Positions 19,178-31,952 of a stretch of DNA of 32,356 bases are shown here, in pieces. Both the position numbers and the translations under genes were made by a program. The notes below the pieces were generated by a model. That model was not told the DNA's origin. It made no database searches and worked only from the letters and a program-made list of their open reading frames with translations. The stretch's first letter is position 1. Every line of letters begins with the position of its first letter. Origin of the DNA: Eubacteriales bacterium (GTDB lineage: Bacteria; Bacillota; Clostridia; Lachnospirales; Lachnospiraceae); contig JAUNGB010000063.1 in the NCBI GenBank assembly GCA_030524715.1, positions 1 to 32,356 on the forward strand, given 5' to 3'.

Positions 19178-19250
19178 ACGCTTTCCTTTTGCAGGCAGAC
19201 ATGTCTCCTGACTGCGGCGTTACCATAAACGAGCCATTTCCGTATATCAG

Positions 19251-19329
19251 ATGTGCAAGGATTCGGTTTGGAATTATGTCAGCATAGCTGACCCGAATCC
19301 CGCACCAAGACTCGCGAGCGAGTCTTGAA
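19251..19329 (-). repeat. 79-bp hairpin-rich repeat, copy A
   Basis: The reverse complement matches 20877-20955 at 74 of 79 positions, so the copies form an inverted pair flanking the ABC genes. Inside are a 22-nt near-palindrome (CAAGACTCGC / GCGAGTCTTG) and GATTCGG...CCGAATC with an internal CAGC/GCTG pair. It lies about 55 nt upstream of the ABC ATPase gene, in its leader or promoter zone. Confidence 0.9.
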
Positions 19330-19383: not shown

Positions 19384-20151
19384 ATGAAACCACTGTTGGA
19401 AGTCAGAGATATCTCTCTTTCCTACCACACGCTTTCCGGGGAAACGTCTGCCCTTTCTCATATTTCTTTTGATCTGATGCCCGGTGAATTTCTTGCCATC
19501 GTCGGGCCGTCCGGATGCGGCAAATCCACCCTGCTTAATTTGATCTGCGGCCTTTTAACGGCAGAGCAGGGAACGATCCTCATGGACGGAGCTCCCGTGG
19601 CCCGCGGAGATTCCCGCATTGGCTATATGCTGCAGAAAGATCACCTTCTGGAATGGAGAAGCATCTACAAAAACGTTCTTCTGGGCCTTGAAATACGTAA
19701 GGAACTCACCCCGGAAAAACTCGCCTTTATTGACGAAATGCTTACCACCTACGGTTTGGACAAATTCCGCAATTCCCGTCCCTCCCAGCTTTCCGGAGGG
19801 ATGCGCCAGCGGGCCGCGCTGATCCGCACACTCGCCCTGAAGCCGGAACTTTTGCTTCTGGATGAACCCTTTTCCGCCCTGGATTACCAGACCCGGTTAA
19901 ATGTCAGCGATGATATCGGCAAAATACTCCGCCGGGAGCATAAAACAGCCATTCTTGTGACCCATGATATCTCTGAGGCGATCAGTATGGCGGACCGTAT
20001 CATTGTCCTGTCCGCAAGGCCCGCAGCCATCCGGAAAATTGTTCCGATCCATCTGGAGATCCAGGAACGGACGCCTCTTACCTCCAGAAATGCCCCGAAT
20101 TTCAAATCCTACTTTAATCTTATCTGGAAGGAGCTGAACAAAAATGCCTGA
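19384..20151 (+). CDS. ABC transporter ATP-binding protein, nitrate/taurine/aromatic (NitT/TauT) type
   Basis: A complete 255-residue ATPase: Walker A VGPSGCGKSTLLNL, Q-loop MLQKDHLLEW (with the LLEW typical of TauB/SsuB/ThiZ proteins), signature QLSGGMRQRAALIRT, Walker B LLLLDEPFSALD and switch VTHDISEAI. It would power import of a small anion or thiamine precursor; the substrate is undecided because no binding-protein gene is present. ATG at 19384 has TGGAGGT. The permease gene overlaps its end by 8 nt. The permease is interrupted, so the transporter should be inactive in this arrangement. Confidence 0.92.
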   Translation: MKPLLEVRDISLSYHTLSGETSALSHISFDLMPGEFLAIVGPSGCGKSTLLNLICGLLTAEQGTILMDGAPVARGDSRIGYMLQKDHLLEWRSIYKNVLLGLEIRKELTPEKLAFIDEMLTTYGLDKFRNSRPSQLSGGMRQRAALIRTLALKPELLLLDEPFSALDYQTRLNVSDDIGKILRREHKTAILVTHDISEAISMADRIIVLSARPAAIRKIVPIHLEIQERTPLTSRNAPNFKSYFNLIWKELNKNA

Positions 20152-20860
20152 ACCATCGGCTGCCCAAAGGCAGTATCTGCTTCGCAAAAAACGCGAAAAA
20201 CAATTTGTTCTTCTGGCCCGTATCCTGATCCTTCTCGGTTTTTCAGGATTATGGGAGATATCCGCCCGCCTGGGCTGGATCGATTCCTTTATCTTCAGCA
20301 GCCCGTGTCAGATCGGAGCTACCTTTATCAGCATGTGCCGGGATCAATCCCTCTTTACACATATTGCGATCACCCTGAAGGAAACGCTTTTAAGCTTTTT
20401 CCTTGTGGTAATCTTCGGTACCGGAACCGCTGTGCTTCTCTGGTCTTCCCGGAAGCTCTCCCTGATCCTTGAGCCATACCTTGTGGTTCTGAACAGCCTT
20501 CCGAAATCCGCCCTCGCCCCGCTTTTGATCGTCTGGCTGGGCGCCAACGAACGGACCATTGTAGTTGCCGGAATGTCCGTGGCCATTTTTGGCTCCGTGA
20601 TCAACCTTTATACCGGTTTTCAGGAGGTTGACCCCGAAAAGCGCAAGCTGATCGCAACCCTCGGAGGCGGCAAAAAAGAGGAACTGAAAAAAATCGTCCT
20701 GCCGTCGTCTATCCCTCTGATTTTAAGCGTCATGAAGGTAAACATCGGGCTCTGCCTGGTGGGCGTAATCATCGGGGAATTTATCGGCGCCAGACAGGGA
20801 CTTGGATATCTGATCATCTATGGAAGCCAGACATTCCGGCACGCAGGCATTCTGAAATAA
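20144..20860 (+). pseudogene. NitT/TauT-type ABC permease, front part, cut off at an insertion site
   Basis: Codes for 238 residues; the first 231 are family-like (inner-membrane permease with the EAA loop ATLGGGKKEELKKIVLPSSIP and the late motif IGARQGLGYLIIYGSQTF). Then it ends with RHAGILK and a stop, where family members continue with about 34 more residues including the last membrane helix. Those residues occur on the same strand at 30195-30296. Joining at a TT (20834-20835 with 30192-30193) gives a 265-residue protein, the normal length. I infer interruption by an integrated element, reversible if the element excises. Confidence 0.85.
20812..20858 (+). mobile_element. Predicted attL of the serine-recombinase element
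   Basis: Left junction. The proposed crossover is TT at 20834-20835, inside a Phe codon of the permease. Bases to the left are host (permease); bases to the right (CCGGCACGCAGGCATTCTGA) are one arm of the reconstructed attP. Confidence 0.75.
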
Positions 20861-20876
20861 TCGCCATCCACATCCA

Positions 20877-20955
20877 TTCAAGACTCGCGAGCGAGTCTTG
20901 GTGCGGGATTCGGGTCAGCTCCGCTGACATAATTCCAAACCGAATCCCTGCACAT
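20877..20955 (+). repeat. 79-bp hairpin-rich repeat, copy B
   Basis: Inverted partner of 19251-19329 (74 of 79 identical). Differences include swapped centre bases of the palindrome (GA versus TC) and two changes in the CAGC/GCTG loop. It begins 42 nt inside the predicted element. Confidence 0.9.
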
Positions 20956-21036
20956 CCTCGCGGAGCATATATCAGATGGGGATTGAATCCCGCCGCTGAT
21001 ATAAATTTGTTACTCACCGCCTATAGAGGCGGGAGT
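20956..21036. repeat. Further palindromes following repeat copy B
   Basis: Three nested or adjacent hairpins: ATATCAG (20969-20975) with CTGATAT (20996-21002), enclosing GGGATTgAATCCC (20979-20991), then ACTCaCCGCCTATAGAGGCG plus GGAGT (21012-21036). Together with copy B this is 160 nt of almost continuous secondary structure with no open frame of note. Confidence 0.7.
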
Positions 21037-21062
21037 CATTCCACATATGATATAACGAAAAA

Positions 21063-21089
21063 AGGGCGCGTTTGGATTCAACGCGCCCT
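21063..21089 (-). terminator. Terminator of the Ca/Na antiporter gene
   Basis: AGGGCGCGT and ACGCGCCCT form perfect 9-bp arms. On the minus strand the hairpin is followed by TTTTTTC, a classic intrinsic terminator about 50 nt after the antiporter stop. Confidence 0.88.
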
Positions 21090-21137
21090 GATTTTAATGA
21101 TATTTTAATCCGGAAACTGAACGCTTAGAGTCTGCGT

Positions 21138-22067
21138 TCATAATAAATATACAAAGTATGCCGCATACGCCGCGAGCATGATCACTCCCCCTGTACGGGA
21201 AAGCTTCTTATCTTTAAATACGCACAGCCACAAAAGGATTCCGGCGGCAGCGGCTACCAGCGTGTCAACAATAAATTTGTCCTCAAATACCACCGGAGTG
21301 ATAAGAGCCGTAGTACCCACTACAAAAAGAATGTTGAAGATATTGCTGCCTACGATGTTTCCGATGGCAATGTCCGCTTTCCCCTTTCTGGCGGCGGAAA
21401 CAGAAGTCACCAGTTCCGGCAGGGAGGTTCCGAACGCCACGATGGTAAGCCCGATAAACCGCTCGCTTAAGCCCATTACCCTCGCAATTCCTGTCGCCCC
21501 GTCTACCGCAAGATCGCTTCCCCAGACAACAAGTACGATTCCCACGGCTACTAAGAGCAGCAGCTTCCATAAAGGCTGTTTCTCTTTCTCTTCATCTGCC
21601 TCTTGTTTTCCCTTCTTCGCCATCCAAAACAGATATCCTAAATAGAGAAGAAAAGCGGCCCAGAGGATCACGCCCTCCCAAAACGTAACGGTATTTCCTG
21701 TACTGCCCACAAGTAAAAGCAGCATGGTTATGGCAAGCATATAAGGAATTTCAACCTGAACCGTGGATTTCGCCACGGCAATGGGAACGATCACCGAAGC
21801 AAGCCCCAGGATCACCAGGATATTCATAATATTGCTGCCCACAATATTTCCGATGGTAATTCCCGCATTTCCTTTCAGCGCCGCGGTAATACTCACCGCA
21901 GCCTCCGGCGCGCTGGTTCCCATCGCTACGATGGTAAGCCCGATGACCAGATGCGGGATCCCGAACTTTTCCGCGATCCCTGCCGCGCCGTCCACAAACC
22001 AGTCCGCCCCCACTACCAGCATAGCAAAGCCAGCAGCAAGCATTAAAAGCTGTAATAAAATTTCCAT
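21138..22067 (-). CDS. Calcium/sodium antiporter (CaCA family, YrbG-like)
   Basis: A 309-residue exchanger built of two inverted halves. The alpha repeats are LTIVAMGTSAPEAAVSITAA with GNIVGSNIMNILVILG, and LTIVAFGTSLPELVTSVSAA with GNIVGSNIFNILFVVG; these carry the ion-binding Glu/Ser/Asn residues. A charged loop (KKGKQEADEEKEKQP) joins the halves. It exchanges Na+ for Ca2+, or possibly another divalent ion. ATG at 22067 has GGAGGG. It has its own promoter and a long structured leader ending in an intrinsic terminator, so expression is probably set by attenuation. It is the leftmost gene of the predicted element. Confidence 0.93.
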   Translation of the reverse strand: MEILLQLLMLAAGFAMLVVGADWFVDGAAGIAEKFGIPHLVIGLTIVAMGTSAPEAAVSITAALKGNAGITIGNIVGSNIMNILVILGLASVIVPIAVAKSTVQVEIPYMLAITMLLLLVGSTGNTVTFWEGVILWAAFLLYLGYLFWMAKKGKQEADEEKEKQPLWKLLLLVAVGIVLVVWGSDLAVDGATGIARVMGLSERFIGLTIVAFGTSLPELVTSVSAARKGKADIAIGNIVGSNIFNILFVVGTTALITPVVFEDKFIVDTLVAAAAGILLWLCVFKDKKLSRTGGVIMLAAYAAYFVYLL

Positions 22068-22102
22068 CTTCCATCCCTCCGGATCTTTTATTTTTTGTGC
22101 GC

Positions 22103-22146
22103 AAAAAGAGACTTCTACCGCACAAAATGAATGCGATAAAAGTCTC
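22103..22146 (-). terminator. Intrinsic terminator (attenuator) just upstream of the antiporter gene
   Basis: On the minus strand GAGACTTTTATCGCA (22132-22146) pairs with TGCGGTAGAAGTCTC (22108-22122) around a 9-nt loop and runs into TTTTT. It stands about 36 nt before the start codon, inside the leader, so it should stop transcription unless an alternative fold forms. Confidence 0.82.
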
Positions 22147-22149
22147 GTT

Positions 22150-22316
22150 CTTATTTCAGTATATATCCCGGCCCTGGAGCGTGTTTAAAATTTATTTCCG
22201 CAATCTGTACTCTCTGTACACCCTGCGTCCTTCTGACGAAGCTTTCCACTACTCCATACGGCGTGATGACGTGACATATAACATCTTCAAAAGATGTGAA
22301 CTACTCCCTGATATCG
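22150..22316 (-). ncRNA. Candidate riboswitch leader, possibly yybP-ykoY (manganese) type
   Basis: The transcript starts near 22316 and almost at once shows GGGAGTAG (22301-22308), then a hairpin ACATCTT/AAGATGT, then GTCACGTCATCACG (22265-22274 region). A GGGGAGTAG box, a hairpin and a GTCnTCA box in this order are the landmarks of yybP-ykoY riboswitches, which often control cation transporters. The usual 3' GCAAGAC segment was not found, and GGAGTAG plus CGTCA recur a second time (22249-22256, 22231-22238), so the class is uncertain. The downstream intrinsic terminator supports a regulatory leader whatever the class. Confidence 0.45.
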
Positions 22317-22322
22317 AGAAAT

Positions 22323-22351
22323 ATTTTATCAAAAGGCCCCCGCCAAGTCAA
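22323..22351 (-). promoter_or_regulatory. Promoter of the Ca/Na antiporter leader
   Basis: TTGACT (22346-22351), a 17-nt spacer and TAAAAT (22323-22328) on the minus strand, starting transcription about 8 nt before the GGGAGTAG box. Confidence 0.7.
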
Positions 22352-22376
22352 GAATAAATTTAAGATTTTATTTCGA

Positions 22377-22445
22377 CTAAATCAAGATTGCATTTACTTA
22401 AACAAAGCCGCATTCACTTTGTCATTCAACCGCTAAATCAAGATT
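22377..22445. repeat. Direct repeat CTAAATCAAGATT downstream of potCD
   Basis: The 13-mer occurs at 22377-22389 and at 22433-22445, the second copy ending next to the potCD stop. The gap between is AT-rich and holds no gene. No terminator hairpin was recognised here. Confidence 0.5.
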
Positions 22446-24323
22446 TTATTCTGACTTTACTTTATTCCAGAGTTCTCCGTATACGGTGTCCGCTTCCGGC
22501 CCGAGATACTGGAAGGTTTCCAGTTCAGGCAGGGTGGAAAGATCAGGGAACGCAATACTGCTGTTGCGGATGGCGTCATCCTCGATCATCTCTCTGGCCG
22601 CCGTATTGGGGGTCGAATAGGTAATATACTCAAAATTCTTAAGGGCAATGTCCGGCCTGCAGATGAAATTCAGGAATTTCTCCGCATTTTCTTTATTCTG
22701 GGAATTCTTGGGGATCACCCAGGAATCGATCCAGATATTGGTTCCCTCCTTTGGGATCACATATTCCAGATCCGGGTTTTCCATCTGCGTATAGATCGCT
22801 TCTCCGGAATAGATCACACCGATGGCAGCCTCTCCGCCGATCATCTTGTCACGCACCTGGTCGATGACATACGCCTGTACCAGCGGCTTCTGCTCCACCA
22901 GAAGATTCTTCGCGGCTGTCAGTTCATCCAGATCTGTGGAATTTAAAGAGTATCCCAGATATCTCAATGCTACGGCAAAAGCATCACGGACGGAATCCTG
23001 CATGAGGATATTGTCTTTATATTTTTCATCCCACAGGATTCCCCAACTGTCCACAGGTTCGTCCACCATAGTTTTATTATAGAGGATCCCCACCGTTCCC
23101 CAGCAGTAAGGGATGGAATATTTATTTTCCGGGTCAAACTGCCGGGACTGCTCCATGTATTCCTCACCAATATACTGCAGGTTGGGAATATTGTCAAAAT
23201 TGATCTCCGCGAGAAGATCGTTTTCGATCATCCTCTGTATCATATAATCGCTGGGGCAGACCACATCATAGGCGATAGCGCCGGAGCTCACCTTCGGATA
23301 CAGGATCTCATTGGTTTCAAATTCTTCATAAACAACATCGATCCCTGTCTCTTCCTCAAAGATGGCGAGCACCTCGGGATCAATATATTCTCCCCAGTTA
23401 TAAACAATCACCTTCTCAGAGTTCATCATCTGGTTACGGGACGCATAGTAAATCCCGCCGCCGACAAAAACAAGGCAGAAGGCTGCCGGGATCACACGGC
23501 GGATTACGATTCTTTTTACCTTTGACGGACGTTTTGCCTTCTTTTTCGCAGTACCTTCTTTTTTCTCCGGCGCATAATTGATCAGCAGAAGAAGCAGCAG
23601 CACTGAAGTAAAAAGAATGGTGGAAAGAGCGTAGATTTCCGGTTTGATACCCTTACGGACCTCCGTATAGATCTTGGTAGAAAGAGTATCGATTCCGGGC
23701 CCTTTGGTAAAATGCGTGATCACAAAATCATCCAGGGACATGGTAAACGCCAGCATAAAGCCTGAAAGAACCCCCGGAACGATATCCGGAAATACCACCT
23801 TAAAAAACGCCTGTAAAGGAGACGCCCCAAGATCCATGGCCGCCTCATAAGTATGACGGCTGGTCTGCTTCAGCTTGGGGGTCACGCTCAATATCACATA
23901 AGGGATATTAAACGTAATATGCGCGATCAGGATCGTCCCGAAGCCCAGCGTCATACGGCAGGCGATAAACAGCAGCATCAGGGAAATACCCATCACGATC
24001 TCCGCGTTCATCATGGGAATATTGGTCAGGCCCATATAAATGGTACGCCATCTCTGCTTCATCCCCTGGATACCGATGGCTGCCGCCGTACCAATAATGG
24101 TAGCGACTGCCGCCGCCACAAAGGATATGATCAGCGTCGTATAAAGGGCGCTCATGATCTGTTCGTTCTGAAACAGCTGCCGATACCATTTTAAAGTAAA
24201 TCCTCCCCATTTAGCCCTTGTCTTAGAGTTATTGAAGGAAAGGACGATCAATGTTACGATAGGCGCGTAAAGAAGGATAAAAATGAGCGCCAGATATATT
24301 TTTTCCAGATATTTCTTAATCAA
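22446..24323 (-). CDS. potCD: Fused spermidine/putrescine permease (PotC) and binding protein (PotD)
   Basis: One unbroken 625-residue frame. Residues 1 to about 255 are a PotC-type permease (YAPIVTLIVLSFNNSKT start, EAAMDLGASPLQAFFKVVFPDI loop). A Lys-rich linker (EKKEGTAKKKAKRPSKVKR) leads to a further membrane helix (about 275-300). From about 310 a PotD-type solute-binding domain follows (VIVYNWGEYIDPEVLAIFEE, YDVVCPSDYMIQRM, IPYCWGTVGILYNK, WIDSWVIPKNSQNKENAEKF). The added helix tethers the binding domain outside the cell. Such fusions occur in several Firmicutes. Start overlaps potB stop by 4 nt. Confidence 0.93.
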   Translation of the reverse strand: MIKKYLEKIYLALIFILLYAPIVTLIVLSFNNSKTRAKWGGFTLKWYRQLFQNEQIMSALYTTLIISFVAAAVATIIGTAAAIGIQGMKQRWRTIYMGLTNIPMMNAEIVMGISLMLLFIACRMTLGFGTILIAHITFNIPYVILSVTPKLKQTSRHTYEAAMDLGASPLQAFFKVVFPDIVPGVLSGFMLAFTMSLDDFVITHFTKGPGIDTLSTKIYTEVRKGIKPEIYALSTILFTSVLLLLLLINYAPEKKEGTAKKKAKRPSKVKRIVIRRVIPAAFCLVFVGGGIYYASRNQMMNSEKVIVYNWGEYIDPEVLAIFEEETGIDVVYEEFETNEILYPKVSSGAIAYDVVCPSDYMIQRMIENDLLAEINFDNIPNLQYIGEEYMEQSRQFDPENKYSIPYCWGTVGILYNKTMVDEPVDSWGILWDEKYKDNILMQDSVRDAFAVALRYLGYSLNSTDLDELTAAKNLLVEQKPLVQAYVIDQVRDKMIGGEAAIGVIYSGEAIYTQMENPDLEYVIPKEGTNIWIDSWVIPKNSQNKENAEKFLNFICRPDIALKNFEYITYSTPNTAAREMIEDDAIRNSSIAFPDLSTLPELETFQYLGPEADTVYGELWNKVKSE

Positions 24324-25135
24324 AATACCGAGCCCTCCTCATCTTTATCGTATTTTGCCACAAGGGCCATGCTTGCAATGATAAACACCATCAGCACCAG
24401 AGACAGGCCGCTTCCTACATGCCAGTTGCTGTTCTGCTTGAAGGACTGCTCGATGACGTTTCCGATCAGCAGGATCTTCCCGCCGCCCAAAAGGTCGGAG
24501 ATAACGAAGGTGGTCAGCGCGGGCACAAAAACCATGGTGATCCCGCTGATGACTCCCGGAACGCTTAAAGGAAGCGTGATCTTCAGGAAGGTCTGAACCG
24601 GATTGGCTCCCAGATCTCTTGCGGCGTTCAGCACGTCCTTATCGATCTTGATCAGGACATTGTAAATGGGCAGTACCATAAACGGCAGGAAGTTATATAC
24701 CATGCCAAGGATAATGGCATAAGGCGTATTGATGATCTCCAGCGCCGGAAGGTGCAGAAAACCAAGAATACTGTTGATAACGCCTGTCTTTTCCAGCAGG
24801 GTCTGCCATGCCATGGTGCGCAGAAGGAAATTCATCCACATGGGAAGAATAAAAATCAGCACAATAAAGCTTGACTGGTTCATATTCCTGGAGCTTAAGA
24901 TCATGGCAAGGGGATAGGCCAGCAGCAGGCACACTGCTGTGCTTATAAAAGAAAGCAGAATGGAAATCCCCAATGCCTTCAGGTTCTCCGGCGTAGTAAT
25001 CTGCGCCAGGTTTGCAAAGGTGAACGCTCCCTCGTCGTCTGTAAACGCATAGTAAACGATCAAAAGGAGGGGTATCACCACAAAGGATACAGACCAGAAC
25101 AGATAAGGGCCTGCCAGATAACGTTTATTCTTCAA
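24320..25135 (-). CDS. potB: Spermidine/putrescine ABC transporter permease PotB
   Basis: About 271 residues, six membrane segments, EAA loop [22 protein letters not shown]-terminus [20 protein letters not shown] typical of PotB. I place the start at TTG 25135 because AGGAGG lies 9 nt upstream and the protein then begins like relatives. An ATG at 25153 in the same frame would add six residues and lacks a good ribosome site. Either way the gene begins inside the end of potA and its stop overlaps potCD, so the three genes are translationally coupled. Confidence 0.92.
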
Positions 25136-26198
25136 TATTGACTGCCTCCTCATCTTCTGATTCCGGTTTTTTCATGATCTGAATGTCAAAGGGGTCTACA
25201 TGGATGCTGACCTCCGTACCCACCGGGAACATATCCGTGCTGTGAACCAGCCATTCATAGTTATTTGCCATAACCTCCATCTCATAGTGTACCCCCTTAA
25301 AGATCAGGTGGGTCACGATCCCGTCGATGCTTCCCTCTCCCGGCTTCAAAAGATCGATATCCTCGGGGCGGATAACCACATCCACAGGCTTGTTGCGCCC
25401 GAAGCCTTCGTCTACACAGGGGAAATTTACGCCCAGGATCTTTACCAGACGGTCTTCCAGCATCAGCCCCGGGAGAATGTTGCTCTCTCCGATAAAGTCC
25501 GCCACAAAAGCGTTTTCCGGCTCATTATAGATACTCTCCGGCGTTCCGATCTGCTGGATATAGCCCTGGTTCATGACGACGATGGTATCGGACATGGTAA
25601 GGGCCTCTTCCTGATCATGGGTTACATATATAAAGGTAATGCCCAGCTCGTTTTTCAGGCGGATCAGCTCGTACTGCATATCCTGACGCATCTTTAAGTC
25701 CAGCGCTCCCAGAGGTTCATCCAGAAGAAGTACCTTCGGCTCGTTGACGATGGCACGGGCGATGGCGATCCTCTGCTGCTGGCCGCCGCTTAAAGAATCA
25801 GGCATACGGTTCTCGAAGCCGTCCAGATTGACCAGCTTTAAGGCGTATTTGATCTTGTCGTGAATATACTGCTTGCTCTTGTTTTTGATTTTCAGGCCGA
25901 AAGCAATATTTTCTGCGATCGTCATGTGGGTAAACAGGGCGTATTTCTGAAATACGGTGTTTAACTGGCGCTTATTCGGCGGAAGATTCGTAATGTCTTT
26001 TCCGTCAAAAATAACACGCCCGGAATCCGGGCTTTCAAACCCGCCCAGAATACGCAGCGTAGTTGTTTTGCCGCATCCGCTCGGACCAAGAAGAGTCAGA
26101 AACTCGTTCTCGCGGATATAAAGGTTCAGATCGTCAAGAACCGTCTGGGTACCATAGGACTTGGTGATGTTGATAAAATCAATCAGCTTGTTGCTCAT
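25125..26198 (-). CDS. potA: Spermidine/putrescine ABC transporter ATP-binding protein PotA
   Basis: A 357-residue ATPase: Walker [20 protein letters not shown]-loop [13 protein letters not shown], signature [15 protein letters not shown], Walker [13 protein letters not shown], switch [12 protein letters not shown]-terminal TOBE-type regulatory domain follows (from about residue 270, [11 protein letters not shown]). It energises polyamine uptake through PotB and PotCD. ATG at 26198 has GGAGGA. It is the first gene of the pot operon, with a 135-nt leader. Confidence 0.94.
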
Positions 26199-26333
26199 GG
26201 CTCATTCCTCCATCATGTAGTATTTCGGCGCCGGTACCGGCCGCCGATAGAGGGAGTCCGGAGAATTATCTCCGCCGTGCAGATTTGCACGAAATATGCC
26301 GAAACAGCCTCCCTCGGCTCATTTCGACATTTA
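26199..26333 (-). other. Leader of the pot operon
   Basis: Transcribed region between the predicted start (about 26333) and potA. It contains a GC-rich palindrome around GCCGGTACCGGC and several short complementary segments, but no terminator-like T-tract. A regulatory fold is possible; nothing specific was recognised. Confidence 0.35.
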
Positions 26334-26339
26334 ATATCT

Positions 26340-26368
26340 ATTATAGTATGTCTTCCCCCCAAAGTCTA
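26340..26368 (-). promoter_or_regulatory. Promoter of the pot operon
   Basis: TATAAT (26340-26345) with TAGACT (26363-26368) 17 nt upstream on the minus strand. It lies directly after the recombinase stop codon (26369), with no visible terminator between them. Confidence 0.6.
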
Positions 26369-28267
26369 TCATTTTCTCACGCCAGAGGGGTACAAAATTT
26401 CATTTACTTCCCATCTTCCCCTGCCTCCTGCCCCCAAAAACTGTATTTTTCCTTCTTTTTTCAGAGCTTTTATTCTATAATTCACGCAGGACGGACTGAT
26501 ATCCAGCTTTTCCGCGATCTGTTTTGCTGTAATCTCCGGGTTTTCTTTGAGCAGGTTCACTATGATTTCTCTGTCTTTCTTTTTCTGTTCCGGATAATCA
26601 AAGGCGTTTCCGTAACAGACGGTTATCCTGTTTTCGTGCGCTTCTATTGAAGGTGATTTTTTTGAGGATGGTATTTCTTTCGCATGTATTTCCAGTGCAG
26701 AGATTTCCTTTGGAGATACTTCCTGTGTAAAAAACAGTTCCATGTACCGGGGATATATAACAATTTGTTCTATCTCTTTCAATATTCCCTCCACACATGC
26801 CCCTTCAAATATGCGTTCTTCCCGCATAAATTCTTCCAGCTTGCAAATTCGTTCTTTCAGAGGCATAGCATGAGCTTCCTGTCTGCTGATTCCCTGTATT
26901 TTTTCCTGTATGGCATTTAATTTTTGTTCCAATTCTGTTTGCTTTGCCTGATAGACCTCATCTGACAGGACGCCAGTCAGTAATTTATCCACCAGAGTAT
27001 TCATCTGTTCTTTTGTTTTTTCTTTATTTCGCTCTTCTCTGTCCAATTCCGGCTTCAGATTTTTCTCCTGCAAAGTAATCTGCAGAAGCTGTTTCATCCT
27101 CCCTATTATTTTTTCTTTTTCTATTGGACGGATTTCGCTGAATTTCCTGTAAAGGATATGGTACAGTTTTTCTTCTTTTAAATGAATATTATCACAGTCT
27201 GTTCTTCCGGATTCTATATAACATTTACATTTCCACTCATAAATTTTTTCGCCGTTCCGATATCTTCGCCGCACTGTGCGGTAATAAGGTGCGTGACAGT
27301 TCCCACAGAAAAGCTTTCCGCTAAGGGGAGTTTTACCGGGATTTTTTCCATTGGCAACTCCGGTCTTTTCCTTCGCAGCAGTTCGGTTTTCTTTTTCAAA
27401 TATAGACCCTTCTCTTTTTTCCAGCCGGGCTCTGTCAGTCATTTTTTGATTGGCAAGTTCCCATAATTCTGCTGACACAATGGTCGGAACTTTGTTTTCA
27501 TAAATAAACTGCTGTTCTATGGGAACCGGCAAAGTTCTTTTTGAATCAAAATCATAGTGCTTCCGGTTCATCACAACAGTTCCTTTATTCAGAGGGCTGC
27601 GGATCATTCTTCGGATATCGGCATCAGAAAAGGGATTGCCCTTTCGATTAACAATCCCTTCGTTTCTTAATATTGCCGCAATTCTGCGGCAGCCATATCC
27701 TGCGGCACACAACTCGTACATCCGACGCTTTATCTGCGCTTCCTCTTCCACAAGCACCACGCTTTTATCCGGCAGTTTTTGATAACCATATGTATGGGAG
27801 GTTAAAATTACTGCTCCTCCGTTTTTCTGCCGGTTATGGTGCGCATTATTAATTTTCTTACTGAGCTCCCGGCTGTAATCCTCTGCCAGAATTGCTTTGA
27901 TTCCCGTAATCAATGCGTCGTCGGTACTGTAAAACTTCTGCTCAATATAAATATAAAGCTTTTTTCGGGAAACCGTAAGCCTGTCAATGAACAGATACCA
28001 GTCCCGGGTATTCCGCATTAACCTGTCCTGGGATTTAATTACAATAATATCGAACTTATCAAGAAGCAGATCCTCATACAGACGGTTATATTCCGCCCGT
28101 CCCTTTGTACTTGTAGCGGAACGGCTTTCCACATAGAAATCCGTCAGGAACCAGCCCTTCCCTTGCACGCACTCCCGCGCCTCCTGTACCTGATTTGCCA
28201 GAGCGTCCTTCTGGCTTTCCTCTTCCGTGCTGCACCGGGCGTAAATCACTGCCCGAAGCCCGCTCAT
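26369..28267 (-). CDS. Large serine recombinase with an extra C-terminal winged helix
   Basis: A 632-residue large serine recombinase. The resolvase domain (about 5-150) has catalytic Ser13 in VIYARCSTEEESQ and SQDRLMRN; the recombinase domain (about 165-280) includes YGCRRIAAILRNEGI. A zinc ribbon with CGNCHAPYYRT follows near residue 320, then a Glu/Lys-rich coiled coil (about 385-470). Beyond the usual end, about residues 560-630 form a winged helix (EITAKQIAEKLDISPSCVNY, RIKALKKEGKIQFLG). It should integrate and excise the surrounding element by recombining attP with attB. ATG overlaps the upstream 54-residue gene by 4 nt (ATGA). Confidence 0.93.
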   Translation of the reverse strand: MSGLRAVIYARCSTEEESQKDALANQVQEARECVQGKGWFLTDFYVESRSATSTKGRAEYNRLYEDLLLDKFDIIVIKSQDRLMRNTRDWYLFIDRLTVSRKKLYIYIEQKFYSTDDALITGIKAILAEDYSRELSKKINNAHHNRQKNGGAVILTSHTYGYQKLPDKSVVLVEEEAQIKRRMYELCAAGYGCRRIAAILRNEGIVNRKGNPFSDADIRRMIRSPLNKGTVVMNRKHYDFDSKRTLPVPIEQQFIYENKVPTIVSAELWELANQKMTDRARLEKREGSIFEKENRTAAKEKTGVANGKNPGKTPLSGKLFCGNCHAPYYRTVRRRYRNGEKIYEWKCKCYIESGRTDCDNIHLKEEKLYHILYRKFSEIRPIEKEKIIGRMKQLLQITLQEKNLKPELDREERNKEKTKEQMNTLVDKLLTGVLSDEVYQAKQTELEQKLNAIQEKIQGISRQEAHAMPLKERICKLEEFMREERIFEGACVEGILKEIEQIVIYPRYMELFFTQEVSPKEISALEIHAKEIPSSKKSPSIEAHENRITVCYGNAFDYPEQKKKDREIIVNLLKENPEITAKQIAEKLDISPSCVNYRIKALKKEGKIQFLGAGGRGRWEVNEILYPSGVRK

Positions 28268-28428
28268 ATACTATCCTCACGGATTCTTTCTGTCAATTTC
28301 ACCTTTTCGCCCGGCGTAATGACATGTTCCTGTTCCATCCGGTCGATAAGCTTTTGCATCACATTCTTTTCCTGCTGAGTTAAGACTGCTTTTCCCGTAT
28401 CCGATGATCCTTTAAAATTTTCTGTCAT
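28264..28428 (-). CDS. Small charged protein (54 aa), possible recombinase accessory factor
   Basis: A 54-residue frame too short for routine calling: MTENFKGSSDTGKAV start, then a charged helical part (QQEKNVMQKLIDRMEQEHVI) and EKVKLTERIREDSI. Both ends overlap neighbours by ATGA, its start with the 25-residue frame and its stop with the recombinase, which strongly suggests it is translated. No family recognised. Position next to a serine recombinase makes a directionality or regulatory factor worth considering, but nothing in the sequence proves that. Confidence 0.68.
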   Translation of the reverse strand: MTENFKGSSDTGKAVLTQQEKNVMQKLIDRMEQEHVITPGEKVKLTERIREDSI

Positions 28429-28502
28429 AGACGTTTGGGTACTCCCGCTGCTAATTCTTTGCTACATTCTATGCAGAACGGGCTTTTCCTGTTACTGTTC
28501 AC
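28425..28502 (-). CDS. Candidate 25-aa Cys-x2-Cys miniprotein
   Basis: GTG at 28502 overlaps the stop of the 96-residue gene (GTGA) and its own stop overlaps the next start (ATGA). The product begins VNSNRKSPFCIECSKELAAG, with one CxxC pair like half of a zinc knuckle, and ends VPKRL. An AGAGAAGG-like ribosome site is present but close. It may instead be only a coupling frame that carries ribosomes to the next gene. Confidence 0.4.
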   Translation of the reverse strand: MNSNRKSPFCIECSKELAAGVPKRL

Positions 28503-28789
28503 TCCTTCTCTCTAATCGTAGTATTTGCCCTATTCCGGTATGCTTCTGCAAGTTTTATGCCTTCTGCCACTTTACTTGCCTGCTGATAATAAAAATTTAC
28601 CGCCGCCCGAAATACTTCCGGGCGTTTTCCCTGAAGCAGATCCGGACTAAACTGTGCCTCTTTCTGATAAAGAAATGTTTTTCCGGAAACAACAAGATAA
28701 TTCTTTTGCGTATCTATATCAATAATTAATTGCGGGGATTCCCCTATATAAAGTTTCCTTCCCTGAAGCTTTACAGGTATCTGCTGCAT
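28499..28789 (-). CDS. Small protein of unknown function (96 aa) between HipA-like kinase and recombinase
   Basis: MQQIPVKLQGRKLYIGESPQ start, followed by beta-strand-like segments (LIIDIDTQKNYLVVSGKTFL) and a helical C-terminal half (EVFRAAVNFYYQQASKVAEG, IKLAEAYRNRANTTIREKE). I recognise no family. AGGAGG lies 9 nt before the ATG at 28789. It follows the kinase gene after 30 nt and overlaps the next frame, so it belongs to the same transcript. By position it could be the kinase partner or substrate. Confidence 0.75.
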   Translation of the reverse strand: MQQIPVKLQGRKLYIGESPQLIIDIDTQKNYLVVSGKTFLYQKEAQFSPDLLQGKRPEVFRAAVNFYYQQASKVAEGIKLAEAYRNRANTTIREKE

Positions 28790-28819
28790 TCCATGCTACC
28801 TCCTGACTGTGAAGTCCGA

Positions 28820-30034
28820 TTACCAATACTTTTCCTTTTTCCAAATCTTCCTGCCGTCCATAAATAGCTGCAGATACTCAATTTTCCGGCAGATTGTCTG
28901 CACAATTTTTTGTATCCGTTCTTCAGGCATTTCCGTGTATTCGCTCAGAAGCTGCTTTGCAATTTCCGGTAAACCTTCTAATTTCGCAATCGGGAACCAT
29001 GTCGGCTCCTTCACATACCGGAGCATCTCCACCTCACGCTTGCAAAATGATGTAACCTTTAAATCCAGAAGCCCGCTTTTTGCCGGAATGAACTCCTGAT
29101 TATAATATAAAGAATTTCCTGTATCAAAAATCGGAGCCATTGCCACCAGTTTTCGTTGCTTTTCGCTGTAAAGAAATCCAAAATTATTATAATGCCTGTC
29201 CGTATTGCTCAAAACAAAGTCTGTGAGAATTGTATATTCCAACTGCCTGCGCACAACTGCCTCTTCCATTCCATGCAGCACTGCCTGTTGAATTACTGCT
29301 TCATATTCTGATATCTCATTTGGAACCTTATAATTTTTTACCAGTTGATAAGCAGATACAAATTCCAAATCCTGCGAAGTAAAAAGCTCGTTCAAAGAAC
29401 ATGGTACTTCCTGTCCTCCTATCAGAATTTTATCCATAACGTAAGTCACGTAATTGTCCCATCCTAACAGTTCATGCATTCTGCCTGCAATTACTTCATT
29501 CACTGATTGCTGACCATAATCATTTGCATTAACCTTTAACAGATACCTTTTTCCATTCCTGATAACCCACTTTTTCTTCATTTCACCATTTACAGAAGAA
29601 GACGGTGAAAATCTGGAAATATGTCTGTCTGCATCAATTCTTCCGGAATCTGTCAGAAGATTTCCCATCTCATCAGAAAAAGCATTTTCATAAAAATTAA
29701 TATCTTTCCAGTACAATTCCTCTCCGACAGGCTGCAGCCAATAATGATCCGTCAAACTCAAACCATATCCGGAAAGCATCAACGACTGACAGGTATCCTC
29801 CCCCATGTACGCCAATACCTGCTGAATGCCACGCCTGGTATCCGGAATCGCTCTTAGCTGCCACCATTGCGCAATCTGGCTGCTCTCCCCATTGCATCCG
29901 ACAGGAAGTTCCTCCGGTAAAAACACTTCAATCACATATTCCAGTTTTCCGGAAACAGAATCCATATATACCAATGCAACATCCAGATCTTTGTGCTTTA
30001 AAACATATAATTCTTCATGTATCAGCGCTTTCAT
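28820..30034 (-). CDS. HipA-like protein kinase
   Basis: A 404-residue kinase-fold protein. The N-terminal part resembles Firmicute HipA-like proteins (LPVG, WWQLRAIPDTRRGIQQVLAY, LSGYGLSLTDHYWLQP). The kinase part has a nucleotide-binding Lys (NGKRYLLKVN, about residue 172), SVNEVIAGRMHELLG, the catalytic loop LSNTDRHYNNFGFLY near 290 and the metal-binding APIFDTGNSLYYN. All key residues look intact. HipA kinases phosphorylate proteins such as tRNA synthetases and act as toxins in some systems. No HipB-like antitoxin or DUF3990/DUF3791 partner is visible. AGGAGG precedes the ATG. It leads the kinase to recombinase operon. Confidence 0.85.
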   Translation of the reverse strand: MKALIHEELYVLKHKDLDVALVYMDSVSGKLEYVIEVFLPEELPVGCNGESSQIAQWWQLRAIPDTRRGIQQVLAYMGEDTCQSLMLSGYGLSLTDHYWLQPVGEELYWKDINFYENAFSDEMGNLLTDSGRIDADRHISRFSPSSSVNGEMKKKWVIRNGKRYLLKVNANDYGQQSVNEVIAGRMHELLGWDNYVTYVMDKILIGGQEVPCSLNELFTSQDLEFVSAYQLVKNYKVPNEISEYEAVIQQAVLHGMEEAVVRRQLEYTILTDFVLSNTDRHYNNFGFLYSEKQRKLVAMAPIFDTGNSLYYNQEFIPAKSGLLDLKVTSFCKREVEMLRYVKEPTWFPIAKLEGLPEIAKQLLSEYTEMPEERIQKIVQTICRKIEYLQLFMDGRKIWKKEKYW

Positions 30035-30049
30035 AAACCTCTGCCTCCT

Positions 30050-30153
30050 TTTACTGCTGCCTATAGTTCCCTCTATTATATATAAGTGTATTTAAAATTC
30101 TGTTACGGTATCAGTATATCACAGTCCTCAATATCGTAGCAAGCAGCAGTAAA
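30050..30153. repeat. Inverted repeat embracing the kinase promoter
   Basis: TTTACTGCTGC (30050-30060) and GCAGCAGTAAA (30143-30153) are perfect 11-bp arms 82 nt apart, one beside the ribosome site of the kinase gene and one upstream of the promoter. They could be paired repressor sites. Confidence 0.55.
30113..30142 (-). promoter_or_regulatory. Candidate promoter of the kinase-recombinase operon
   Basis: TTGCTA (30137-30142), an 18-nt spacer and TATACT (30113-30118) on the minus strand. A TATAAT box nearer the gene (about 30077) is an alternative without a clear -35 box. Confidence 0.4.
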
Positions 30154-30174
30154 GCGGACATTTGCATTCTGTCA
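30151..30174. repeat. AAAGCGGA element, decayed copy
   Basis: AAAGCGGACATTTGCATTCT matches the first 20 nt of the palindrome at 18082 except for two bases, but the closing arm is lost (TCTGTCAT instead of TCCGCTTT). It directly abuts the predicted attR. Confidence 0.5.
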
Positions 30175-30215
30175 TAATGCCTACGCACCTTTTTAAGCTT
30201 ACCTGGGTGTTAATG
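30170..30215 (+). mobile_element. Predicted attR of the serine-recombinase element
   Basis: Right junction, crossover TT at 30192-30193. Bases to the left (TCATAATGCCTACGCACCTT) are the second attP arm; bases to the right restore the permease frame as Phe-Lys-Leu-Thr-Trp. The two arms share AGGCATT/AATGCCT at equal distance from TT. Confidence 0.75.
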
Positions 30216-30299
30216 TCTATCGTGATCCTTTGCATTATAGCCATGGCTTTATACGGGATCCTGAATTTTATCGAAAAAAAATATTTAAAGCGCATCTGA
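30192..30299 (+). pseudogene. Detached C-terminal end of the ABC permease
   Basis: Reads FKLTWVLMSIVILCIIAMAL then YGILNFIEKKYLKRI and stop: a last membrane helix and basic tail characteristic of NitT/TauT-type permeases. An ATG at 30177 in frame gives a 40-codon frame, but it has no ribosome site and its first codons belong to the element. It fits exactly onto the truncated end at 20835 with no missing or duplicated residues. Confidence 0.82.
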
Positions 30300-30453: not shown

Positions 30454-31854
30454 CTAATTCTCATTTGTAACAATATTCTGCATCCATACGCCTTTTTTGA
30501 CCAGAATAAATCCAATGGCACATTTGATCCAGTCTCCAACCTGAACCAGCGCCAGGATATATACTACATACAGATCCGTATACCTGCTCAGGAAATACGC
30601 GATCGGCACACTCACGCACCAGATAAACACACTGTCAAAAAAGAACGTCACCAGTGTCTTCCCGCCTGAGCGGAGGGTAAAATAAGCGGCATGCAAAAAT
30701 GCATTCTGAGGCATAAAGATCGCCTGCACAATAATAAACCGGGCAGCCAGAGTCCTTGCCTCCGGCGTTGTGTTGTATAACCTCGGAAATGCCGGAGCGA
30801 TCACCAGCATCACAGCCGCCACAATGGTACAGCAGAAAACGGAAAAAGCGATCATCTTATTGTCCGTATCCCTGGCTTCCTCCATCTTACCGCCGCCCAG
30901 AAGCTGTCCAACGATTATGGCCACAGAATCACCCAGCGCAATAAATACTACATTAAAGACATTATTAATGGTATTGGCAATATTCAGCCCTGCCACTACA
31001 TTCAGCCCTCTTACAGAATAACACTGGGTCAGCATTGCCATAGCGGACGCCCACAGAGTTTCATTCAAAAGCAGCGGCATTCCTTTGATAAAGAACTTCT
31101 TCACCAAAGCCCCGGGAACCTTCATTGTCCGGTAAAGCCCTACTATATAGCTGTTTCTCTCTTTATGCCTGTGAGTCCATACAAGAACCACCGCCGCTTC
31201 CACATAACGGGACATCACTGTCGCCACTGCCGCGCCTACAACGCCAAGCTTTGGAAACCCGAACTTTCCGTAGATCAACAGATAATTAAAGGTAAGGTTA
31301 ACCGCCACGGCAATGAGCCCGGCCCGCATGGGAACCACTGTTTCACCGCACTCCCTCAGAGTGCTGGCGTATACCTGAAGCATCATAAATGCCGGAAGTC
31401 CAAGCAGCATTACCAACAGATATTTCTTTCCATAACTCAGCGCCGCAGCCAGGTCCCCGCCGTCACTGCTGCCGTTCAGATACATCTGAATAAGACTCTC
31501 TCCAAACACCAGAAACAAAAGGATCGCCCCCGCGGTCAGGATCACTGCCATCCATATCTTATAGCGGAAGGTATGGCGGACACCCTCGTCATCCTTCTGG
31601 CCGAAATACTGTGCCGTAAAAATCCCCGCTCCGGACAGTCCTCCAAAAATACAGAGATTATACACAAAAATCAACTGATTTACGATAGCCACTCCGGACA
31701 TCTGCTCCGTTCCCACCTGCCCGACCATAATGTTGTCCAAAAGGCTGACAAAATTAGTAATACCGTTCTGGATCATGATCGGCACTGCGATGGCGAGCAC
31801 CATTTTGTAAAAATTCCTGTCTCCTACAAATTTCTTCCGTAAATTCCCCTTCAT
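30454..31854 (-). CDS. MATE family multidrug/Na+ efflux transporter
   Basis: About 466 residues and 12 membrane segments in two homologous halves. N-terminal MVLAIAVPIMIQNGITNFVS, LLDNIMVGQVGTEQMSGVAI and GAGIFTAQYFGQKDDEGVRH, and second-half GDSVAIIVGQLLGGGKMEEA are typical of MATE exporters, which expel drugs or metabolites in exchange for Na+ or H+. I choose ATG 31854 (MKGNLRKKFVGDRNFYKMVL) with GAGGGA upstream; the frame stays open to 31902. It is convergent with the permease tail and outside the element. Confidence 0.92.
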   Translation of the reverse strand: MKGNLRKKFVGDRNFYKMVLAIAVPIMIQNGITNFVSLLDNIMVGQVGTEQMSGVAIVNQLIFVYNLCIFGGLSGAGIFTAQYFGQKDDEGVRHTFRYKIWMAVILTAGAILLFLVFGESLIQMYLNGSSDGGDLAAALSYGKKYLLVMLLGLPAFMMLQVYASTLRECGETVVPMRAGLIAVAVNLTFNYLLIYGKFGFPKLGVVGAAVATVMSRYVEAAVVLVWTHRHKERNSYIVGLYRTMKVPGALVKKFFIKGMPLLLNETLWASAMAMLTQCYSVRGLNVVAGLNIANTINNVFNVVFIALGDSVAIIVGQLLGGGKMEEARDTDNKMIAFSVFCCTIVAAVMLVIAPAFPRLYNTTPEARTLAARFIIVQAIFMPQNAFLHAAYFTLRSGGKTLVTFFFDSVFIWCVSVPIAYFLSRYTDLYVVYILALVQVGDWIKCAIGFILVKKGVWMQNIVTNEN

Positions 31855-31952
31855 AACAAATTCCCTCATCCTTATGTCTGAATAATCAAGTATGCATTGC
31901 AATGATCAGGCAGCAGCCTTGGCGCTTACCAGATATTACAAGCAGTCTTTCA

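Follow-up and report, generated by a model that had tools for sequence, protein, structure and literature searches.

A permease gene of Lachnospiraceae as the probable target of site-specific large serine recombinase islands with changing cargo

The stretch of DNA analysed here (the window) is the entire contig JAUNGB010000063.1 (32,356 bp; C208 in our set) of genome G000 (GCA_030524715.1), a draft assembly of a Lachnospiraceae bacterium in 210 contigs with 5% estimated contamination. In this window, the permease gene of an ABC transporter is interrupted by an insert of 9,358 bp that encodes a large serine recombinase (LSR). The insert is very probably a site-specific genomic island, inserted at a TT dinucleotide in a Phe codon of the permease gene and belonging to a single recombinase clade that is tied to this site and changes its cargo.

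The front of the permease gene (20144..20835, plus strand; BPD_transp_1, HMM positions 1-238) is overlapped by an ABC ATPase gene (19384-20151), and its tail, which comprises the Phe codon and the last 34 codons and encodes the final hydrophobic helix, lies on the same strand at 30192..30299. When both pieces were joined at TT (20834-20835 = 30192-30193), a single frame was obtained, in which ...YLIIYGSQTF is continued by KLTWVLMSIVILC..., the cut falling inside the Phe-231 codon. This frame check bore out the earlier note on this DNA, which had described two pieces on the same strand and a precise frame on joining, and the two pieces are one gene. In the split state, the front frame enters the island for seven more codons (RHAGILK) and stops at 20858-20860. 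As the tail is the C-terminal hydrophobic helix, its loss probably leaves the permease inactive for as long as the island sits there. The Pfam cut-off was passed by the permease for BPD_transp_1 only, and its matches to NitT/TauT-type permeases (SaoP, SsuC, TauC, NtrB) were all under the NCBIfam cut-offs.

When related genomes were searched for an intact permease, as the earlier note had suggested, 46 loci matching over the ATPase and the permease front were found in a genus sample of 64 genomes. The permease was intact with the same continuation in 42 of these loci and split in the other four (G000, G083, G070 and G069). Therefore, the tail does not belong to a different permease, a possibility ruled out by the matching continuation in the intact homologues. 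The MATE transporter gene next to the tail in the window (30454..31902, minus strand) is the chromosomal right flank, as it comes after the intact permease in five relatives (G023, G027, G013, G066 and G079), other genes being found there in other relatives. Relatives thus have an empty site, and the insertion is exact, as is usual for LSR islands: in an alignment of the split G083 to its intact sister G076, the flanks met at the site exactly, with approximately 6.3 kb inserted. This alignment spans 3.6 kb on the front side and only 99 bp on the tail side, beyond which the genomes differ; exactness is thus shown at the gene but does not extend far into the right flank. The same picture was given by a split and an intact contig of congeners in the G196 bin, 88% identical before the site and 84% after it; as this bin mixes two species, the contigs are not alternative states of a single strain.

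In a family sample of 299 genomes, 153 hold the permease at an E value of 1e-40 or better. The permease match stops at the site in at least 16 of them, and the cut was confirmed at the junction in each of these 16; G101, in which the match stops earlier than the site, is outside this count. In G219 the permease is split without a strong recombinase match, on a contig that extends only about 250 bp beyond the break. Since 23 other genomes or records have their cut in the same Phe codon as the window, chance is excluded. No relaxed selection was seen on the split copies, whose fronts and tails have nonsynonymous/synonymous ratios resembling those of intact pairs, although the synonymous sites are near saturation and the ratios thus cannot date the insertions.

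The ends of the island were defined by its putative attachment sites. The TT crossover cores on the left (attL, 20834..20835, plus strand) and on the right (attR, 30192..30193, plus strand) lie at the centre of the symmetry of the predicted attP. Its P' half (CGGCACGCAGGCATTCTGA from 20837), together with the rest of the left end as far as a host repeat, occupies positions 20836..20873 and has a similar counterpart in G188, while the P half (30167..30191, with the motif TCATAATGCCTACGCACCTT at 30172-30191) forms the right end of the island and an inverted repeat with the left arm. Two symmetric arms of approximately 25 bp about a central dinucleotide are expected for the attP of an LSR (PMC3783163), and this arrangement was found in 11 of 11 elements tested, with arms that are inverted repeats at one identical offset, centred on TT. 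The test covered elements with both ends, except for G284, which also has both but was omitted because its front motif had been missed at that time. On average, 17.8 of 25 positions matched in an element's own pair of arms, compared to 12.0 in swapped pairs and 5.0-7.8 in own pairs set at other offsets. Thus, the two arms have evolved in step within each element, and they are therefore true island ends, those of the window included. The weakest pair (14 of 28) was that of G201, whose recombinase is truncated too.

Two rearranged loci were also observed. In G258 (L195 and L226), the P arm and the permease tail are present twice, at 36642 and 38674 of the joined stretch, 2 kb apart and 80% identical over 210 bp. 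In G277 (L198, 12262-14353), the permease tail lies in inverted orientation between recombinase and front, which looks like a flip of part of the island together with flanking DNA.

The base before TT, a silent codon position, was a purine in 4 of 4 split copies of the genus compared to 9 of 42 intact ones (p = 0.0044), and outside the genus in 18 of 21 split compared to 31 of 63 intact copies (p = 0.0043), in both cases for a pattern spotted prior to testing and with relatedness ignored. Of the 64 non-genus loci chosen as intact, L279 (G219) turned out to be split and was counted as such; the 21 split bases were taken by eye and include the G448 remnant and L030 (genus unknown). With a purine in most split genes and a pyrimidine in most intact genus copies, this base may gate target choice.

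The recombinase (26369..28267, minus strand, 632 aa) agrees with the prior description of the element as encoding an LSR, as Resolvase, Recombinase and Zn-ribbon domains were detected, along with an extra C-terminal winged helix (residues 564-609) after the usual LSR parts. Among the clade sequences with letters at the relevant positions, conservation is complete for the catalytic Ser13 (26 of 26) and for the four zinc-ribbon Cys (25 of 25). In a tree of 47 recombinases, all 25 permease-linked sequences fell in one clade of 32 (support 0.998), the rest of which consists of three members on contigs too short to tell and four unlinked to the permease. The 25 include the records of Fusicatenibacter saccharivorans type (G201 and MT836003) and the remnant of G448. 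At 320 bits or more, 27 recombinases were recovered, 23 of them with the permease, three at contig edges (G188, G052 and G519) and one without it (G147); the attL of G188 lies on another contig. As the clade extends to a second family (G432, G616 and G495), its members appear to be mostly tied to this permease site across Lachnospiraceae and at least one further family.

Some of these recombinases look dead. In the F. saccharivorans-type records (G201 and MT836003.1), the frame is shortened to 321-329 aa, and the split therefore looks permanent there. In G448 (L259, 6140-13477), the permease is whole, and downstream of it lie a short attL remnant, a broken recombinase and a second, nearly identical tail, which suggests that an insertion here was later followed by restoration of the gene.

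A 54-aa open reading frame (ORF) overlaps the start of the recombinase gene (28264..28428, minus strand). On inspection by eye, 18 of 28 clade members have a similar small ORF in this upstream position and two more (G137 and G616) a loosely similar one, whereas it was unseen in eight, two of which are cut by contig edges inside the recombinase. No significant family match was obtained for the 54-aa ORF of the window; by analogy with CD1234 of skinCd, it is a candidate regulator or directionality factor.

The genes carried differ from one element to another. The 12 elements with both ends range from 2.3 to 27.9 kb and have different gene lists, with a few recurrent modules. In the window, a HipA-like kinase (28820..30034, minus strand) has a 96-aa ORF (28499..28789, minus strand) as its partner, and the same pair is present in the G345 element, whose far end is missing. 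Elsewhere, the cargo includes PAS-GGDEF-EAL and DUF362 proteins (G083), an ABC/FtsX protein (G187), AAA-ATPase/PD-DEXK proteins (G336 and G194), a non-specific endonuclease (G201), a GNAT acetyltransferase (G069) and, judged from ORF starts only, two-component and ABC genes (G070 and G187). Among the matches listed, parts of the elements of G196, G194 and G363 recur on contigs of other elements at 66-70%. As gene content varies and occupancy is sporadic, the elements are read as site-specific genomic islands.

The absence of phage genes claimed in the earlier note was supported for the window's element, the only one searched: none of its eight proteins matched a PHROG labelled structural, although many PHROGs are without known function, and the structural or replication genes of a prophage were not found in it. 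For the recombinase, the PHROGs hit were integrase, invertase, transposase and regulator families, and for PotA an 'ABC transporter' family, while the other matches were to PHROGs of unknown function. No near DNA match was found in plasmids, and by protein all plasmid records were below 60% identity. Among phage records, just one exceeded 60% by protein, MT836003.1 (L252), a 14-kb record deposited as a bacteriophage; it carries a Fusicatenibacter-type split permease with the truncated recombinase and is therefore probably chromosomal. No Rfam family was detected in the window at the gathering score.

The remaining genes of the island look like resident DNA, which is unusual cargo. They consist of a calcium/sodium antiporter gene (21138..22067, minus strand), found elsewhere on the chromosome in G023, G027 and G066, and of a polyamine uptake operon with potA, potB and a fused potCD (22446..26198, minus strand). 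The GC content of this part is 0.45-0.51 compared to 0.40-0.46 in the recombinase-HipA part. The only match to pot at the 80% level in G000 lies inside the island, although weaker paralogues exist, and no second strong match to the antiporter was found in this genome. In the pot tree and in the host-gene tree alike, G000 is placed beside G013, G079, G027, G066 and G023, whereas the positions of G080 and G014 change from one tree to the other, both having been read without support values. An imported payload is thus unlikely, given that the tree placement of pot follows the host genes and that G000 has no second copy at that level. The pot genes lie within approximately 2 kb of the permease in nine relatives and beside the MATE gene in G014, so their position between permease and MATE is as in the likely ancestor; in close relatives they are near LacI-like (G023, G066 and G079) or malQ-like (G027) genes, as named from ORF starts. 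Nevertheless, pot is not an unmoved flank, since the permease tail sits on the wrong side of it for a simple insertion. The operon is probably a resident one that was moved into the island, and the transporters of the window's island are cargo, not clearly a payload for uptake control.

A structured intergenic repeat of the host, with a partly palindromic fold, lies inside the island at 20873..21061. It was found at 39 other places over at least 80 bp among the best 40 of 160 candidates scored in G000; longer copies elsewhere are at most 97% identical, and one copy of 88 bp reaches 99%. A further copy is present at 19250-19329 of the window, and related copies occur in other members of the genus. 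Capture of pot through such repeats was rejected as the repeat was seen on the left side only, and the pot-recombinase junction is unique, without a repeat, among the scored candidates of G000.

These data suggest a scheme in which attP of a circular form would have been recombined by the LSR with an attB inside the permease gene, the crossover falling on the TT of the Phe codon that closes the conserved GLGYLIIYGSQ(T/V)F motif. The sites suggest that excision would be within reach of the LSR, perhaps aided by the product of the small upstream ORF: recombination of attL with attR would release the circle and restore the gene exactly. The clade would mostly have kept its target while its cargo changed, with the HipA-like pair and the resident-looking transporters in the window.

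Several observations weigh against this scheme. Neither the excised chromosome nor the circle was found among the best 40 of 160 and 9 of 48 candidates scored in G000. No circular or empty form was detected in viral contigs, in searches that used only the exact attP of the window or an empty-site pattern that was too strict, as a near-identical pattern fitted 0 of 262 loci, intact permeases included. The recombinases of G346, G644, G147 and G205 form a subgroup inside the clade that lies away from the permease in the stretches examined; most simply, this is likely a change of target, and the genomes of the unlinked recombinases of G147, G205, G346 and G355 have the permease intact elsewhere. 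In addition, no mechanism was found that brought the pot operon and the antiporter into the island, and an assembly join might be concealed by the host repeat close to the left end.

The phenomenon of regulated gene integrity has reportedly been described by Mageeney et al. in 2020. The island described here shares with such cases the disruption of a gene on insertion, with no substitute supplied for the lost part (PMC10111431), whereas any regulation of it would be hypothetical. The kind of element is already known, both as LSR islands with a dedicated gene target and as gene-interrupting elements without phage genes. An example of the latter is gin in gerE of Bacillus cereus ATCC10987 (PMC5595907), which likewise interrupts a gene, encodes serine recombinases, lacks phage-related genes, has att sites with an imperfect inverted repeat and differs in content between strains. 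In contrast to the single LSR and the excision deduced from sites here, gin has three serine recombinases and a demonstrated excision in sporulation. It also has an additional excision factor, GirX, to which the candidate small ORF here may correspond; the target here is a transporter gene and the spread is over many genera. In skinCd, which interrupts sigK of Clostridioides difficile (PMC5025042), an LSR and a separate element-encoded directionality factor likewise restore the gene by excision, but skinCd resembles a prophage and has its factor controlled by sporulation, whereas no family was detected for the candidate small ORF here. Durrant et al. (PMC10083194) described diverse LSRs at one conserved site inside a coding gene, with disruption of the target, as in the prolyl isomerase example. 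The targets named there are magnesium chelatase and prolyl isomerase rather than a permease, and the terms 'permease' and 'ABC transporter' are absent from its main text, the part covered by our search. No report of this permease as an LSR target was found among the publications listed by the literature searches.

The part of the earlier note that saw a non-phage element interrupting a gene, with excision that would restore it exactly, was upheld. Its further suggestion, an undescribed switch controlling nutrient uptake, was not. Exact restoration of the frame is given by any conservative LSR insertion and, therefore, is no sign of a switch by itself. A regulated switch, in which the island is kept because its timed excision turns the permease on, like skin in sigK or gin in gerE, is unlikely. 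It would account for an interior target and an attP without a full replacement tail, which are unusual for islands unless the disruption is tolerated or useful (PMC10111431), for permease halves that have both kept an open frame and show conservation like that of intact copies, within the limits of near-saturated synonymous sites, and for a recurring small ORF beside the LSR that could serve as directionality factor. However, occupancy is sporadic (4 of 46 genus loci and at least 16 of 153 family genomes), gene lists differ between elements, close relatives have the empty site, the recombinase of G201 is truncated in a split copy, and G448 has an intact permease beside element remnants. A switch for nutrient uptake is thus possible but unsupported. 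A broader version, also rather unlikely, is that hosts use the clade's insertion as a reversible on/off state of the transporter within populations, a regulated gene integrity outside phages and sporulation, with the uptake of two substrates linked through the captured polyamine operon. If so, a cell that lost the window's island would regain one transporter at the cost of the other.

Very improbably, the two permease pieces could both be translated and work together. An in-frame ATG without a stop lies five codons before the Phe codon in G000 (MPTHLF; 30177-30191), G083, G070, G069, G187 and G284, but 8 of 14 attR ends lack such an ATG, two of these having an in-frame stop and some having TTG, CTG or GTG as possible starts. 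No consistent ribosome site was seen by eye at the attR ends, and the reading frame of the tail follows from the fixed attP geometry. Finally, an assembly artefact or a tail from a second permease, for which the draft state and estimated contamination of the assembly and a host repeat starting 38 bp from the island's left end could speak, is hardly credible in view of the recurrent cut at the same codon, the matching arms in 11 of 11 elements and the match of the tail to intact homologues.

Read as the target of site-specific LSR islands, the permease codon is a widespread insertion hotspot, given that, of the 153 Lachnospiraceae genomes in the sample that hold the permease, at least 16 carry the cut at this codon. 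With more than 20 natural att sites, the LSR clade would be useful for studying target choice and perhaps as a source of integrases for engineering anaerobes, and the resident-looking genes inside the window's island bear on how islands become hard to lose.

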